Below, one piece after another: positions 4,773 to 33,636 of a stretch of 38,421 nucleotides of DNA (position 1 is the first letter of the stretch; every line of letters starts with the position of its first letter). The position numbers and the translations under genes are program-made. The notes under the pieces are model-generated. The model worked only from the letters and a program-made list of their open reading frames with translations, had not been told where the DNA came from and made no database searches. Source of the stretch: an uncultured Bacilli bacterium (GTDB lineage Bacteria; Bacillota_I; Bacilli_A; RF39; UBA660); NCBI GenBank assembly GCA_944358825.1, contig CALVSA010000010.1:1-38421 (forward strand), written 5' to 3'.

Positions 4773-5123
4773 TTAAAAATATAAATTATTATAACTATTA
4801 ACAGTAGAATAATAACTCTTATAACTAATATATCCCATATCATATAATTTTCTTTTTCTTCTAATATTTTTTCTTATTTTATTTCTTTTACTACTACTAA
4901 TACTTATAATAGTCTTCTTATTAATAACCCTATATCTACTACCTAAAAATACAAATCCATGACTTGCTTTTAATATCATTGTCTTATTAGTATTTATCTT
5001 AAGTTTATACTCCATATTCAATTTGTTTATTATAATCTTATAAATATACTTTAAATACTCTTTATCACGATGAATCAATATAAAATCATCAACATATCTA
5101 ATATAATATTTAATACTTATAAC
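4773..5123 (-). pseudogene. C-terminal remnant of a reverse transcriptase, cut off by an insertion sequence
   Basis: The frame runs open from the left edge of the insertion sequence (base 5123) to a stop at 4773, giving 116 residues with no start of their own. It opens with YYIRYVDDFILIHRDKEYLK, which contains the catalytic YxDD box of reverse transcriptases, followed by the LKINTNKTMI and FVFLGSRYR segments and the basic thumb-like tail expected after it. All of the fingers and most of the palm are missing, so the enzyme must be inactive. Group II intron, retron and DGR enzymes all share these motifs. The neighbouring lectin-type target gene on the same strand points to a DGR. No maturase or HNH domain follows, which argues against a group II intron. 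Confidence 0.82.
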
Positions 5124-5218: not shown

Positions 5219-5253
5219 TATTATAGAACAAAAATAAAGAATAGAGGTTGTTT
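5197..5253 (+). promoter_or_regulatory. Inverted repeat that would hide the transposase ribosome site in read-through RNA
   Basis: AAACAACCT (5197-5205) pairs exactly with AGGTTGTTT (5245-5253), which contains the AGAGG ribosome site and abuts the ATG at 5254. Inner arms TATTCTTATT (5213-5222) and AATAAAGAATA (5233-5243) extend the stem. The left arm lies upstream of the predicted start of transcription, so only RNA entering from outside the IS could fold this way. IS10 and IS50 are known to use such a device against activation by outside promoters; its use here is inference. Confidence 0.6.
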
Positions 5254-6423
5254 ATGAATAAAGTATATAATAATCAAAATGAAATTGCAAGTAAAATGAG
5301 AGATTTTTTACTAAAATGTAATCCTAATATTAGAAAAACTCAACTTAAAATTATTCCTTATATTGTTTTAGGTATGATTTTATCTGAATCTTCTGTTGCT
5401 AGTGATATTGCTAAATCTCTTAAAGATGATTTTTCTCTAATTCAACATGAATCTGTTATTAGAAGAATTAAAAGATTATTTAAAAATAAATTATTTGATC
5501 CTTATAAATTTTATGATGACATTATTAGATATATTATTTCTAATTATAAACCTAAACATGATGATAAAAGAATACATCTAACTTTTGATCACATGTTTTC
5601 TCATGATAATTATACTGTTTTTATGATTACTATGAGAATTGGCAAACAAGGCATTCCCTTATGGTTTAGATGTTTTAAAGATAAAGATGACTCTAATGCT
5701 TTTGATGAAAATCTTTTAAAGGAAGGTATTTCTTATGTTTCTTCTTTATTCGATTCTTCTTATAAGTTAATATTTCTTGCTGATAGATGGTTTAACTCTA
5801 CTACTTTAATGCAACACATTGAATCTTTGGGGCATACTTATTGTATTAGATTAAAAAGAAACATTAAAGTATTTGTTTATGATAAAAAAGAAAATAATAA
5901 AGTTTGGAAACCTTTAAGCGAATTAAAAACTTATAAATATCATTCTAAATCTTTTAACGATATTCTAATTACTGATAACTCTTATAAAACTAACATTGTT
6001 ATTAGTAAATCAGATGGTGTTAATGAACCTTGGATTATTGTTACTAATGGTTCTACTCAAAGGGCTATTAAAGATTATAGTTTTCGTTTTGGTTCTATTG
6101 AATCAGTATTTAAAAATCAAAAGTCTAATGGTTTTTATATTGAATCTGTTGTTAAAGCAGACTTAGATTATTTTTCTTCTATGTACACTCTTGTTTGTTT
6201 TTCTACTCTTTTCTTAACTATATTAGGGGCTGACTATTCTAAAAACAGTAGTTGCTATAAAAATGTTAAAATCATAACCCATAAGTGTTTTATAGAAAAT
6301 GGTAAAAGAGTAAAGAAAAGAGTTTTATCTTTATTTAATACAGGACTTACTTTATTTAATCTTGCCTTTAACTCTTTAAAATATGTTAGGCTCTCCTTTT
6401 CTTTTACTCTTTATGACATTTAA
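5254..6423 (+). CDS. IS4-family DDE transposase
   Basis: This 389-residue transposase catalyses cut-and-paste movement of the IS. The DDE triad can be placed at D112 (LTFDHMF), D177 (IFLADRWFNS) and E283 (YSFRFGSIESVFKNQK). The last segment is close to the Y-R-E-K signature of the IS4 family, with one extra residue between R and E. A helical, basic N-terminal region suited to DNA binding precedes the first Asp. The gene appears intact. I start at the ATG at 5254 with AGAGG 6 bases upstream; a TTG two codons earlier lies within the ribosome-site stem. Confidence 0.88.
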   Translation: MNKVYNNQNEIASKMRDFLLKCNPNIRKTQLKIIPYIVLGMILSESSVASDIAKSLKDDFSLIQHESVIRRIKRLFKNKLFDPYKFYDDIIRYIISNYKPKHDDKRIHLTFDHMFSHDNYTVFMITMRIGKQGIPLWFRCFKDKDDSNAFDENLLKEGISYVSSLFDSSYKLIFLADRWFNSTTLMQHIESLGHTYCIRLKRNIKVFVYDKKENNKVWKPLSELKTYKYHSKSFNDILITDNSYKTNIVISKSDGVNEPWIIVTNGSTQRAIKDYSFRFGSIESVFKNQKSNGFYIESVVKADLDYFSSMYTLVCFSTLFLTILGADYSKNSSCYKNVKIITHKCFIENGKRVKKRVLSLFNTGLTLFNLAFNSLKYVRLSFSFTLYDI

Positions 6424-28355: not shown

Positions 28356-28880
28356 GTGTTAAAAAAAACTAGAATATATGCAGTAATTGGAATATTTTTA
28401 CTATCATTTATTTGTCATTTTGTCTTTGATCTTTTTCCAAACGTATTATTTTCAATATTCTTCCCTGTAAATGAAAGTATATGGGAACATATGAAGATTT
28501 TATTTACTGCAACATTACTTTACTCATTTATAGATAAAATAATATTAAAAAAACTTAATGTAAATTATAATAATTATTATCTACAATTATTTATATCAGC
28601 TTTTATATCTATACCAATTTATCTAATAATATACCTACCAATTTATAATTCCATCGGAGAAAATATGTTTGTATCAATCTTTTTATTACTAATAGTATAT
28701 ATAATTATGCAATATATAAGTTATAAAATAATGCAAAAAAAAGAAACTAAAATACCAAATTATATATTTAGCATCCTAATTATCTTAACATATATTATTT
28801 TTATATATTTGACATATAATCCACCACAAAACTATATATTCTACGATAGTGAAAATGAAATATATGGAATAGAACGCTAA
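28356..28880 (+). CDS. DUF6512-like multi-pass membrane protein
   Basis: This 174-residue protein has about five hydrophobic helices. The conserved-looking segment FPVNESIWEHMKILF at about 37-51 is the DUF6512 hallmark; function is unknown. The start codon is GTG at 28356 with GAGGTG 7 bases upstream and a TATAAT at 28334-28339. The stop overlaps the convergent pyruvate kinase end by 4 bases. Confidence 0.75.
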   Translation: MLKKTRIYAVIGIFLLSFICHFVFDLFPNVLFSIFFPVNESIWEHMKILFTATLLYSFIDKIILKKLNVNYNNYYLQLFISAFISIPIYLIIYLPIYNSIGENMFVSIFLLLIVYIIMQYISYKIMQKKETKIPNYIFSILIILTYIIFIYLTYNPPQNYIFYDSENEIYGIER

Positions 28881-30286
28881 TCCAAGCGCTCTATTTTCAT
28901 AAAATTAGTTGTCTTATTAACAGTATTATTAGGAAAACCACCAGTAATAATAATTATATCATCACTATCAGCATTAAACATCTCCTTATATAACCTTTTA
29001 GCATCTTCAACTATTTCATCAGTACTCTCATATTCTTTAACAACCTGACTATACACTCCATAATTAAGAGACAAACTTCTAGCAACTTCTTCACTAATAC
29101 AAGCCGCAATTATTGGAACATTCGGTTTTAAATTACTAATCTTAATAGCACTGTTTCCACTCATAGTAGCCGCCACTATAGCCCTCACACGTAGAGTCTT
29201 AGAACATTCAATAACACTCTTGGCAATAGTCATTGCAATATCAACATCTTTTGTAATTGGTATAATTTCATCATAATTTTGACTATTTTCAGCCATTTTA
29301 CAAATTTTTGCCATGTATTCAACAACCGTAATTGGATGTTTACCAGTAGTAGTCTCACCACTTAACATAACCGCATCTGTTCCATCAAAAACAGCATTAG
29401 CAACATCGCTTACTTCAGCCCTAGTTGGACGAATATTTTTCTTCATTGACTCTAACATTTCAGTTGCAACAATAGCGATTTTTCCATACTTACGACATTT
29501 TTTAATTATTTCCTTTTGATAAATAGGTAACATTTCCAAAGGAACTTCCACTCCCAAATCACCACGTGCAACCATCGCACCATCAGCAACTTCTAAAATT
29601 TCATCTAAGTTTTTAATACCTTCTTGATTTTCTATTTTAGCAATTAGTTTTATATTCTTATTCTTATTTTTAACTAACTCTCTAGCTTCCATAACATCAT
29701 CTTTACAACTAACAAAAGATAAAGCAATAAAATCTCCTTCACTAATAAGATCAGACGTTAAATCCTTATAATCTGCCTCGCTTACAAACGGTATTGATAA
29801 ATTAACTCCAGGAACATTTAAACTCTTTTTATTTCCTAATTTACCACCATCAATTATCTTACAAGTAACTCCATCCTTTTCAATAGAAATAACTTCAATT
29901 TTCATTAAACCATTTTCAAGTAAAATAACATTACCTACTTTTAAATCATCAATTGCCTCAGGATGATTTAGTGAAAACCTATTTTCATTTCCAATAACTT
30001 CATCTTTAACTATTCTAATTGTTTTACCTTCAACCAAATTAATCTCATCATTTTCCATCATTTGATTTCTAAATTCTGGTCCTTTAGTATCAAATAAAAT
30101 ACCAATATGTTTACCTGTTTTTTCTCTTACTTTCTTAACAGTCTCAATTACATTAATTCTCTCTTCCATTGTTGCATGAGAAAAATTAATTCTCGCAACA
30201 TTCATTCCTGCTTCTACCATTTTCTCCATAACTTCAACACTAGAACTAGCAGGTCCTATACTACAAATAATTTTAGTTTTTTTCAT
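28877..30286 (-). CDS. pyk: Pyruvate kinase
   Basis: Catalyses phosphoenolpyruvate + ADP to pyruvate + ATP, the last step of glycolysis. Seen are TKIICSIGPAS (residues 3-13), the RINFSHA loop, FDTKGPEFRN, the signature IKLIAKIENQEG at about 210-221 and the metal/substrate loop ARGDLGVEVPLE at about 235-246. The C-terminal allosteric domain is complete, but there is no extra PEP-utiliser-like domain of the Bacillus type. The 469 residues are normal for the short form. The ATG overlaps the S51 gene stop (ATGA), making this the last gene of a five-gene operon. Confidence 0.96.
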   Translation of the reverse strand: MKKTKIICSIGPASSSVEVMEKMVEAGMNVARINFSHATMEERINVIETVKKVREKTGKHIGILFDTKGPEFRNQMMENDEINLVEGKTIRIVKDEVIGNENRFSLNHPEAIDDLKVGNVILLENGLMKIEVISIEKDGVTCKIIDGGKLGNKKSLNVPGVNLSIPFVSEADYKDLTSDLISEGDFIALSFVSCKDDVMEARELVKNKNKNIKLIAKIENQEGIKNLDEILEVADGAMVARGDLGVEVPLEMLPIYQKEIIKKCRKYGKIAIVATEMLESMKKNIRPTRAEVSDVANAVFDGTDAVMLSGETTTGKHPITVVEYMAKICKMAENSQNYDEIIPITKDVDIAMTIAKSVIECSKTLRVRAIVAATMSGNSAIKISNLKPNVPIIAACISEEVARSLSLNYGVYSQVVKEYESTDEIVEDAKRLYKEMFNADSDDIIIITGGFPNNTVNKTTNFMKIERLD

Positions 30287-30963
30287 ACTATCCCTCTTTC
30301 TATTTTTATAACATTACCATAAGTTTTAACATCTAAACTACTTCTATTTAAAACAACTGCTCCATCATCAGCAATCGCATAAATATCTTTATCATATTCA
30401 TTAGCAACTTCTCTTAAAAAATCCAAATACTCTTTAGTATCTAAACTATGAACATCAATATAAAATGGATCATCAACAATCCCAAATCCATCATAAAAAG
30501 CAAAGTATTTATAATAATTATTCTCTTTCGTAATAAAATATCTTTTAAACTCTAAAACTGCCCCTGCACTCTCACCAATGACAATACCTTCAAAATATTT
30601 AATATCATATAATAATTCAGTCCCATGCACAACTTTAGAAAAAAGCATTTCAGGATTTCCTCCTGTTAACAATAAAACATCAGCCTTTTTAATTTTTTCT
30701 CTCAAAAGTTCTTTAGAATCACTATAACAGTTTCCAATAAAAATATTTTCTTCTCTAATACCTAAATTAATCAAAGAATTAATATACTTATTATATTTAT
30801 CAGATCCCTTTTTAAAATAATCATTTAAAAGCCTATTAGCATCTAACTCTTGTGGCATCGACCAAGGCAAAACAACTGCATTAGCATCCCTTTTAATTAA
30901 CCTTCTTAAATCGTCATTAATTAAAGCCATCGCCTTTATTTTAGAAACAAAAACACTATACAT
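30283..30963 (-). CDS. Peptidase S51 / class I glutamine amidotransferase-like protein
   Basis: This 226-residue protein is of the PepE (dipeptidase E) type. The nucleophile elbow IVIGESAGAV puts Ser at residue 132, and LLLTGGNPEML at about 97-107 forms the oxyanion side. A His in FYIDVHSLD (about 170) can complete the triad. It overlaps the preceding synthetase-like gene by 8 bases and pyk by 4, so translation is coupled. PepE enzymes cut Asp-X dipeptides and relatives process cyanophycin; which applies here is not known. AAGGAGAG precedes the ATG. Confidence 0.82.
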   Translation of the reverse strand: MYSVFVSKIKAMALINDDLRRLIKRDANAVVLPWSMPQELDANRLLNDYFKKGSDKYNKYINSLINLGIREENIFIGNCYSDSKELLREKIKKADVLLLTGGNPEMLFSKVVHGTELLYDIKYFEGIVIGESAGAVLEFKRYFITKENNYYKYFAFYDGFGIVDDPFYIDVHSLDTKEYLDFLREVANEYDKDIYAIADDGAVVLNRSSLDVKTYGNVIKIERGIV

Positions 30964-32023
30964 TACGTCTCTCCTTTACTTTTTTCATGACTTTTTGAAA
31001 ATTAAATTGCTCATTAAAAATATAGGCAAGATCTTTATTAAAATTACCAACACAATTATTATAACAAATAGTCTCATAAATATCAAACTTCTTGTCCAAA
31101 GGCATTCTTCTTAACTTACTAACTAAATCATAATCTATCTTCCGTTGTTTAACACTCCATTTAGTATTTAAAATAACAATCAATTTCTTAGTAATAACAT
31201 CATCAATATTATTAACAGAAAAATTGCAATCATTAATCCCCTCAATAATAGGAGTTCCAACATAAATACTGTTAATATGACTATTTAAAACATACTCTAA
31301 TACACTAACCATATATAATTGATATAACTCTTTATTTCCACATAAAATAACCTTCTCATCATCATCAAATAAACTAACATAAACTTCCCATAAAAAATCT
31401 ATATCAATATTATATTTATGATTATTATAATTAATATAAATACCAGTATCTCTTTTTCTAGAAATAATTGTATAAGATGGCAAAATAACTTTATTAAAAC
31501 TTTTTATATCCTTATTTAAATAATCAGGCATAAACTTAACATAAAAATTATTAACTTTAGAAAAATCAAAAACTAATTCATCTTCCTCATACAACTTACA
31601 AACACTACCACATTTCAAACACACCATTTGATCGTTATTAAAACTATATAAAGTATTATTTGGATTACAAGTCTTAATATTATTTTTATCTACTTCAATA
31701 ACACCACAATCACATCTATACATCATAACTTTCTTCTCGTATATAAAATTTTTCTTAATTAACAAAAAAACTTTCTCTAACAAGAGTTCAATATGATCAA
31801 TATCAACCCATAAATCACAGTTTATCTTATGTTTATTTATATTATCCAAATAACTATCTAAATTATCACTTCTATCCTTAAAAGAATCTAATAAATTAAG
31901 TGCCAAATAAAAATTAGCCCCCAATTCTTTACTCAACGTCTCACCTATAATCGGACTAACTAATCGCGAAAATTCATGATTTTTTAAAGGAGAAAGTGGT
32001 AAAGTAATAACTGCCCTACTCAT
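30956..32023 (-). CDS. Degenerate class Ia aminoacyl-tRNA-synthetase-like protein
   Basis: Over 355 residues the order of segments follows MetRS-like class Ia enzymes. First comes a Rossmann start VITLPLSPLKNHEFSRLVSP, where the HIGH box would lie (only His16 remains). KINCDLWVDID (66-76) follows, then a zinc-knuckle region (Cys104, 106, 119, 135, 138, 142), IISRKRDTGIYI (186-197), and DIDFLWEVYVS with VILCGNKELYQLYMVSVLEY (225-244). No KMSKS motif is visible, and the anticodon-binding domain is absent. It is therefore probably not a working synthetase. It overlaps a nucleotidyltransferase gene upstream and an S51 gene downstream by 8 bases each. The relation is my reading of motif order, not a search result. 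Confidence 0.5.
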   Translation of the reverse strand: MSRAVITLPLSPLKNHEFSRLVSPIIGETLSKELGANFYLALNLLDSFKDRSDNLDSYLDNINKHKINCDLWVDIDHIELLLEKVFLLIKKNFIYEKKVMMYRCDCGVIEVDKNNIKTCNPNNTLYSFNNDQMVCLKCGSVCKLYEEDELVFDFSKVNNFYVKFMPDYLNKDIKSFNKVILPSYTIISRKRDTGIYINYNNHKYNIDIDFLWEVYVSLFDDDEKVILCGNKELYQLYMVSVLEYVLNSHINSIYVGTPIIEGINDCNFSVNNIDDVITKKLIVILNTKWSVKQRKIDYDLVSKLRRMPLDKKFDIYETICYNNCVGNFNKDLAYIFNEQFNFQKVMKKVKERRNV

Positions 32024-33131
32024 TTATCATCATCCTTAACTTTTTTAAAACATCTAACAAATTGTTACAAACAACCAAACGCAAATTCTCTAACTGCTCT
32101 AAATTCTGATAATTAATATCACCATGAACATGAATACTATAAATTATATTATTATTAAGACAATATAATGATAATTTTTTAACTAACCACAAATATTTAT
32201 ATATATTAAATTTAATATCCAAATCATCAAAAAAACTAGAATTCAAAACCTCATTTAATGTATATAAATTCTTATTATTATACATCCTAACTAAATTAAG
32301 AGTATTATAAATATTAGCAAACATATCCTGTTGATAAACTCTTTTGATAACAGAAATATCATTATTTAATTTAACATCTTTCTTAATATTCTTTCTAACA
32401 TTTTCAATTAAATCAATTAATCTATTTCTATCTTCAAATTTAATAAGCTTACTATAATTATCATTAAACCTTTTCTCATTTAAAACAACATAAAAATTAT
32501 GTGCCCATTCCCTATTTTCATTTAAAATCTCTCTAATAATATATTTATTAAACGCCTTATATGATTTACTATTATTATATTGCAAAAAAAATCTCTTTTT
32601 AGTATTCTCATAAAATGAATAAGATATATAATTAGCATCATCTTTATATAACCTAACAGTTAAAGGATTAGCATTAGAATTAAATTTCTTATTTAATTTA
32701 GTAGTAATAACAGAATGAATATTATTACGCTTAATACCTAACACATAAGATACAATATAAAAATACATCTCTTCATACTTATAAATAAACCTCTTAAAAA
32801 CATCACTATATAAAAAGTGAATATCAACATCACTATTAATTTTATTTGAAAAACGAGCAAAACTACCAGTAACAAAAATAGACACAGAAAAAAGTTTAAA
32901 AACTCTAAATTCAGCCGCTAATTCTTTTAAAAACATTTTAACCAAAAAATTATGCCTATTAATAAAGTCAACTTCTTTATCATAAGAAAAGTCTAAATCA
33001 TCTTCACATCTAAATTCATCTAACTGATAATGATATTTTAAATAGTATTTATTAGCCAAATAATTTAGTTTTTTCCATTCATAATTATTAAATTTAATAT
33101 CCAAAACATCTACATTATAGTCCTTAAACAT
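32016..33131 (-). CDS. Polymerase-beta-superfamily (MNT/GlnD-like) nucleotidyltransferase
   Basis: The 371-residue protein carries the nucleotidyltransferase signature VTGSFARFSNKINSDVDIHF, with Gly89-Ser90 and metal ligands Asp101 and Asp103 in the hG[GS]x(9-13)DhD pattern. The rest is helical and basic, with many Tyr/Asn/Lys. Relatives transfer UMP or AMP to proteins or act on RNA or small molecules. AAGAGGT precedes the ATG and the gene overlaps the synthetase-like gene by 8 bases. The pairing suggests that both act on one substrate, possibly tRNA, but that is inference. Confidence 0.7.
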   Translation of the reverse strand: MFKDYNVDVLDIKFNNYEWKKLNYLANKYYLKYHYQLDEFRCEDDLDFSYDKEVDFINRHNFLVKMFLKELAAEFRVFKLFSVSIFVTGSFARFSNKINSDVDIHFLYSDVFKRFIYKYEEMYFYIVSYVLGIKRNNIHSVITTKLNKKFNSNANPLTVRLYKDDANYISYSFYENTKKRFFLQYNNSKSYKAFNKYIIREILNENREWAHNFYVVLNEKRFNDNYSKLIKFEDRNRLIDLIENVRKNIKKDVKLNNDISVIKRVYQQDMFANIYNTLNLVRMYNNKNLYTLNEVLNSSFFDDLDIKFNIYKYLWLVKKLSLYCLNNNIIYSIHVHGDINYQNLEQLENLRLVVCNNLLDVLKKLRMMINE

Positions 33132-33133
33132 AA

Positions 33134-33541
33134 TTACCTCTTATAAGCAATTAATAGCTCTTTTTTACGTGCATCTAACTGTTCTTTATCACTAGATTCC
33201 ATTAAATAATTAACAAGTTCACAACGATATTTCTTCAAATTTTTAATATACTCATTATTATTTTTAAACTCATATCGAAAATAAATAATATTAGAAATAG
33301 TATTAATTCCAACTAACCCTCCAAAAAGAATTGAAATAAATAAAACTTTATCAGCAGTAACACCAATTAGCAATGCACAAGCAGAAATGTTTAACAATGG
33401 CCTAATTAACAAAAGCATTCTCTTTTGTCTTGCAATACGCAGTTCATCTTTCAACTGAGCATTAACAAATTTTAAAGATTCCTCTCTACTAATAACTAAT
33501 TTTTGACTAGAGTTTTTTTTGAAAAAATTATCATTAATCAT
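33134..33541 (-). CDS. Small two-helix membrane protein, first gene of the pyk operon
   Basis: From ATG 33541 (AGGAGGGG 5 bases upstream; a GTG at 33565 would lie before that site) the protein has 135 residues. A basic, coiled N-terminal part is followed by two hydrophobic segments at about 44-62 and 64-82 and a charged C-terminal coiled coil (about 88-135). I recognise no family. It heads the operon and has a perfect promoter. Two bases separate it from the nucleotidyltransferase gene. Confidence 0.7.
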   Translation of the reverse strand: MINDNFFKKNSSQKLVISREESLKFVNAQLKDELRIARQKRMLLLIRPLLNISACALLIGVTADKVLFISILFGGLVGINTISNIIYFRYEFKNNNEYIKNLKKYRCELVNYLMESSDKEQLDARKKELLIAYKR

Positions 33542-33607
33542 CAATACCCCTCCTATTCTATTCACTTTTCACAACAATTAAATAAATTATTACTCAATTG
33601 GTTACGT

Positions 33608-33636
33608 ATTATAATATATTTAACTTTTTTTGTCAA
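33608..33636 (-). promoter_or_regulatory. Consensus promoter of the five-gene pyk operon
   Basis: TTGACA (33636-33631), exactly 17 bases, TATAAT (33613-33608) on the minus strand: a perfect sigma-A promoter, implying strong expression of all five genes down to pyk. Confidence 0.85.

Follow-up and report, generated by a model that had tools for sequence, protein, structure and literature searches.

The window analysed here, a 38,421-nucleotide stretch of contig CALVSA010000010.1 from an uncultured Bacilli bacterium, carries on its minus strand an operon (33565-28877) of overlapping genes, with a promoter at its start and a terminator-like stem at its end (Table 1). Because the promoter stands before a gene for a small membrane protein (MEM) and a terminator-like stem follows the pyruvate kinase gene pyk, the operon is read in the order MEM-NT-SynL-S51-pyk, where NT is a nucleotidyltransferase, SynL a synthetase-like protein and S51 a serine peptidase. 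NT overlaps SynL by 8 bp, SynL overlaps S51 by 8 bp and S51 overlaps pyk by 4 bp. The open reading frame list and a promoter with 12 of 12 consensus matches agree with the four reading frames, the overlaps and the single perfect promoter first described for this region. A possible internal promoter near the 3' end of SynL could drive S51 alone; the candidate is weak, as it lies in AT-rich background and its equivalent position is conserved only in part across loci. Elsewhere the window encodes a DDE transposase (5248-6423; PF01609, E 1e-5), beside which lies a 101-residue open reading frame (4773-5078) that has no Pfam match and appears by eye to be a reverse-transcriptase fragment.

Table 1. 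Position, strand and supporting evidence for the features of the operon in the window.
Feature	Position	Strand	Evidence or description
Terminator-like stem 3' of the upstream gene, just before the operon promoter	33681-33663		Sequence scan
Promoter, sigma-70-type, perfect	33608-33636	-	TTGACA-17-TATAAT, 12/12 consensus matches
MEM, small membrane protein, first gene of the operon	33134-33565	-	ORF list
NT, pol-beta-fold nucleotidyltransferase	32016-33131	-	NTP_transf_2 match
SynL, 355 aa, MetRS-like class Ia synthetase core	30956-32023	-	AlphaFold, Foldseek, VIA-align, hhalign, motif counts
Possible internal promoter near the 3' end of SynL	31058-31086	-	TTGATA-17-TATAAT, TG-extended
S51 serine peptidase	30283-30963	-	PF03575, E 1.1e-9; triad residues
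pyk, pyruvate kinase	28877-30286	-	TIGR01064, E 4e-153
Terminator-like stem-loop at the operon end, just after pyk	28868-28895	-	11-bp stem, then T-rich tail

Comparison across 21 separate loci with a complete or partial SynL separates the core of the operon from its flanks. The placement of pyk in the operon by the initial annotation stands for the window, where the gene overlaps S51 and is probably cotranscribed with the cassette, but pyk lies near the cassette in just one other locus (L035, for 2 of the 21 in all), and there on the opposite side. The suggestion that the small membrane protein always goes with the pair was not borne out, since a phmmer search found no MEM homologue in any other locus. 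Neither pyk nor MEM is a conserved member of the cassette. A housekeeping or regulatory role linked to glycolysis, to which the shared operon and overlap with pyk would point, is already contradicted by the relatives and is extremely improbable.

The NT protein matches the NTP_transf_2 family (E 1e-4), as do 12 of 12 relatives, and its putative active-site motif GSFARFSNKINSDVDIHF (GS...DxD) is intact, with G89, S90, D101 and D103 invariant. It resembles CdnE and MNT chains weakly, as well as candidate models of PADLOC. It is not recognized as MntA, scoring 13.9 bits against a model cut-off of 60, and a HEPN protein is absent from the operon. The fold is that of pol-beta, and no ThiF match was found among the operon proteins.

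SynL has no sequence match in Pfam, NCBIfam or the PDB. The relatives used come partly from genomes in the same family-level group and partly from named contigs, which all belong to uncultured Bacilli or Tenericutes. AlphaFold gave no confident model when supplied with three SynL sequences (pLDDT 48); with 20 sequences it gave a model of pLDDT 91 and pTM 0.88, in which a class I Rossmann catalytic core with a connective peptide is present. Structure prediction thus finds the synthetase fold that had been proposed for this gene. The top Foldseek match of the model is methionyl-tRNA synthetase (MetRS, E 6e-12), and VIA-align superposes 326 residues at 3.5 A (Z 22.0), the whole model corresponding to about residues 3-417 of MetRS. 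An independent profile-profile comparison (hhalign) of SynL with MetRS of related genomes returned E 3.4e-6 and a probability of 88%. GluRS/GlnRS reached 64% (N-terminal part), CysRS 4% and GatB, an unrelated control, 0.5%. These three lines together identify SynL as a class Ia core. The SynL profile also matches CysRS in two loci (L016 and L017), a match within the synthetase superfamily that the profile-profile comparison resolves in favor of MetRS. Matches of the profile to prion sequences (E 0.01-0.3) are due to chance, as are weak search matches to a MutL-like protein (L018) and a lipoprotein (L019 and L020). A viral structure library gave no significant matches other than to ordinary synthetases of giant viruses and a single uncharacterized protein.

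The Rossmann core, the connective domain with its cysteine cluster and the stem-contact region of SynL all align with MetRS over those 326 residues, and a SynL string of the form ISRxRxTG resembles the synthetase motif ISRxxxWG. SynL nevertheless departs from MetRS in several respects, beginning with an identity of about 10%. None of 18 sequences has a HIGH histidine at either motif position; they have E, N, S or K at one and R, K, M or L at the other. A KMSKS-like string is missing from all 20 sequences examined, and the region is variable. The position of the conserved aspartate in the GxD motif, assigned by reading of the alignment, is occupied by H, K or R across the SynL family. The C-terminal anticodon-binding helix bundle is also missing, as the final residue of SynL pairs with about residue 417 of the 500 in MetRS. 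The initial annotation had described a synthetase without HIGH, KMSKS or anticodon domain; the structural model, both structural searches, the profile comparison and the column counts concur on the two motifs, and the end point of the model on the domain. SynL has instead its own invariant residues. N43, R191, D207, D209 and N230 form a polar pocket set that is unchanged in all 16 rows of alignment A3, W212 and W289 are likewise kept throughout the family, and C104, C106, C135, C138 and C142, in the pattern CxCG...CxxCxxxC, are invariant in the same 16 rows at the site of the MetRS zinc knuckle. The invariant residues and the five cysteines indicate a pocket that has been remodelled and conserved rather than one in decay. 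Since the ATP-binding motifs are gone, amino-acid adenylation is most likely no longer possible for SynL.

Several proteins with synthetase-like folds work outside translation or on charged tRNA. The ATP-dependent hydrazine synthetase PyrN joins a MetRS-like domain to a cupin domain (PMC11705231), and that MetRS-like domain is one of SynL's close matches in structure (Z 19.8). SynL could in principle be an enzyme of this kind that is still ATP-dependent with altered motifs, but the equivalents of the HIGH histidines, KMSKS and GxD are absent in every relative and the operon proteins include no cupin partner, so we consider this very improbable. SbzA and AcmF are synthetase-like aminoacyl transferases that move an amino acid from aminoacyl-tRNA onto a small molecule (PMC12945691). 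SbzA is IleRS-like and hence class Ia, as is SynL, although it retains HYGH, AMSKA and the full IleRS architecture, whereas SynL has neither motif and is far smaller. Cyclodipeptide synthases, which are HUP-superfamily relatives of the class I synthetases, also take aminoacyl-tRNA as substrate (PMC13062777). SynL shares with them a class I-like fold without ATP motifs, but what it matches best is MetRS, a class Ia enzyme that has a cysteine cluster.

The pairing of NT with SynL extends well beyond the window. NT adjoins SynL or sits one gene away in 19 of the 21 loci, which confirms the two genes as neighbors in relatives; in the loci that lack NT (L062 and L063/L064), SynL is truncated or broken. 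S51, which the initial annotation had noted as a following gene, proved as constant a partner, being present in 19 of 21 loci, and both exceptions have a GNAT instead. The usual arrangement is NT-SynL-S51 in the same order and on the same strand. Variants place NT after S51 (L036), a GNAT between NT and SynL (L027) or, between SynL and S51, an RlmN/Cfr-like radical SAM protein of 282 residues (L034:3055-3903; TIGR00048, E 8e-45, below the cut-off). Among 145 genomes, four have both SynL and the S51 subfamily, one has SynL only, one S51 only and 139 neither (Fisher p = 1.4e-6, with SynL status taken from a separate search and assuming no further SynL-positive genome among the 145). The recurrence of the arrangement in most relatives, together with this co-occurrence, argues that it is more than chance. 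The divergences of NT, SynL and S51 are also correlated (Spearman 0.65-0.74), to which shared ancestry contributes. The anatomy of the system is very well supported.

The cassette is patchily distributed. Of 337 genomes in the order, 15 have it, as do 6 of 35 from a single genus, counting a few weak or partial matches. Among the genomes searched it is found in one family-level group only. No SynL was found in 392 genomes across the phylum besides the genome of the window itself, nor in the PADLOC, PHROGs, phage, plasmid and viral contig collections searched. Recombinases lie near the cassette in L033, L034 and L039, and Mob_Pre proteins in L039, L064 and L067. Nudix, HAD and RelA/SpoT-type proteins recur as additional neighbors, although not constantly, and are compatible with nucleotide chemistry. 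The RelA/SpoT-type proteins (HD+RelA_SpoT+TGS, or HD+TGS only) are encoded beside the cassette or its S51 at L034:6123-7565, L037:9841-10554 and L181:1662-3104. A second, different S51 gene directly follows that of the cassette in two loci (L025:7844-8548 and L182:302-730). In genome G007, a second MetRS gene split by frame breaks (L023:10029-11674, contig C19) lies about 2.2 kb downstream of S51, and another MetRS is encoded on a different contig.

These surroundings bear on one alternative, namely that the genes form a resistance cassette against synthetase inhibitors from outside, in which NT nucleotidylates the drug, S51 hydrolyses it or GNAT acetylates it, SynL is a decoy that binds aminoacyl-adenylate analogues and nothing toxic is made. 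Various loci contain or adjoin NT, GNAT, S51, S66, glyoxalase and an RlmN/Cfr-like radical SAM protein, each from a resistance-like family; mobilisation genes are close by, and the broken second MetRS of G007 would fit as well. A decoy, however, needs no invariant set of polar pocket residues, and resistance genes usually act singly, unlike NT and SynL, which nearly always occur as a pair. On balance we find this reading rather doubtful.

The best functional clue is S51. Its putative triad, S132/H172/D199, is invariant in 15 aligned relatives. The S51 peptidase MccG cleaves the isoaspartyl-nucleotide of processed microcin C by means of a Ser-His-Asp triad and so protects cells (Yagmurov et al. 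2022, PMC9239234), and microcin C immunity is also conferred by MccE2, a GNAT, and MccF, an S66 peptidase (PMC9239234). The triad of the cassette enzyme corresponds to that given for MccG in PMC9239234, and differs from the Ser/His/Glu of PepE; an MccG-like triad may, however, be common to S51 enzymes with other substrates, and two clade V relatives gave no protection against microcin C (PMC9239234). The two modules without S51, in G012 and G180, belong to draft assemblies in which no S51 was found genome-wide, and each holds a GNAT, the two being 52% identical. G150 has neither NT nor SynL beside its copy of the same S51 subfamily; the S51 gene there follows an S66 gene that finds its best PDB matches in MccC/MccF-family proteins (E 7e-113). 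The likeness to microcin C self-immunity thus lies in the constant S51 partner, the GNAT that replaces it in two loci and the MccF-family S66 beside the S51 of G150. The G150 genes belong to a cluster (L181:1662-8460, contig C18) encoding a RelA/SpoT-type protein (480 aa), an AsnRS-like class II core (343 aa), a methyltransferase, an uncharacterized protein of 365 residues, a kinase, the MccF-like S66 and S51; this cluster may be another cassette built on a synthetase paralogue, with a pair of immunity peptidases.

S51 also outlasts its partners. It is intact where NT and SynL have decayed, in L065, L066 and L067 and also in L062 and L064, and between the solo copies of L065 and L066 dN/dS is 0.10, at a dS of 0.41. 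None of the SynL loci examined was seen to combine a broken S51 with an NT and a SynL that are both intact, in draft assemblies where a lone frame break may be an error. L039 and L183 contain fragments of a second S51 copy. That S51 persists while NT and SynL decay is what one would expect if it encodes an immunity protein or antidote, but it could also reflect the place of S51 as last gene. Additionally, the exchange of GNAT for S51 is seen in two loci, and other Bacilli that lack SynL commonly have standalone S51 genes, both of which temper an immunity reading.

The same pattern could be produced by a toxin-antitoxin or anti-phage module acting on tRNA, in which NT modifies tRNA ends in the manner of MenT-type toxins, SynL recognises the acceptor arm and S51 or GNAT counteracts or regulates the pair. 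Such a module would account for damage being more common in NT and SynL than in S51, for a distribution that is patchy even inside one genus, for the nearby recombinases and Mob_Pre proteins and for the weak likeness of NT to CdnE, MNT chains and PADLOC candidates. As a rule, however, no defence island was seen beside the cassette, CRISPR-like genes being recognized by eye in L030 alone; SynL is absent from the defence, phage, plasmid and viral collections named above; and the constant third partner is a peptidase of metabolic type, which is unusual in such systems. We judge a module of this kind to be unlikely.

The explanation that we prefer, tentatively and at somewhat less than even chances, is that NT and SynL make or handle a molecule resembling an aminoacyl-nucleotide, from which S51 or GNAT protects the cell. 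The cassette would be a mobile accessory unit of three genes. SynL, derived from MetRS and most likely without amino-acid adenylation, would most likely act on or transfer an aminoacyl group that is already activated, whether on aminoacyl-tRNA or on an aminoacyl-nucleotide, a role we infer from the known synthetase-like enzymes that hand amino acids from aminoacyl-tRNA to small molecules. The nucleotide would be supplied or attached by NT, and the product, an aminoacyl-nucleotide-like small molecule, would block a synthetase or impair translation in some other way. S51, or GNAT where S51 is absent, would destroy or cap this product inside the cell, as MccG and MccE2 do. The parallel with microcin C does not extend to biosynthesis. 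MccA, MccB and MccC were not seen in the cassette; a simple scan of 16 loci found no conserved short open reading frame upstream of NT that could be a precursor peptide, and the cassette core holds neither a ThiF-like MccB nor an exporter. This makes a secreted antibiotic of the microcin C type unlikely; the product may remain intracellular, or may not exist.

Taken to its fullest form, this explanation would make SynL an ATP-independent aminoacyl transferase that arose from MetRS, in parallel with the cyclodipeptide synthases, and that, with NT, builds an intracellular aminoacyl-nucleotide toxin or signal guarded by interchangeable S51, GNAT and S66 antidotes, in all a new mobile small-molecule system; so complete a picture is improbable at present. 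What the cassette presents is a known fold in undescribed use within a conserved gene trio. A literature search yielded no paper on a nucleotidyltransferase paired with a synthetase-like protein, in line with the initial annotation, and no description was found of a MetRS-derived look-alike tied to a nucleotidyltransferase. New chemistry arises among synthetase look-alikes that have no ATP motifs, and the trio, with its one predicted antidote, offers a small and direct test set. Should the immunity reading be true, gut Bacilli with small genomes would carry a mobile aminoacyl-nucleotide system, of a compound class that targets translation.
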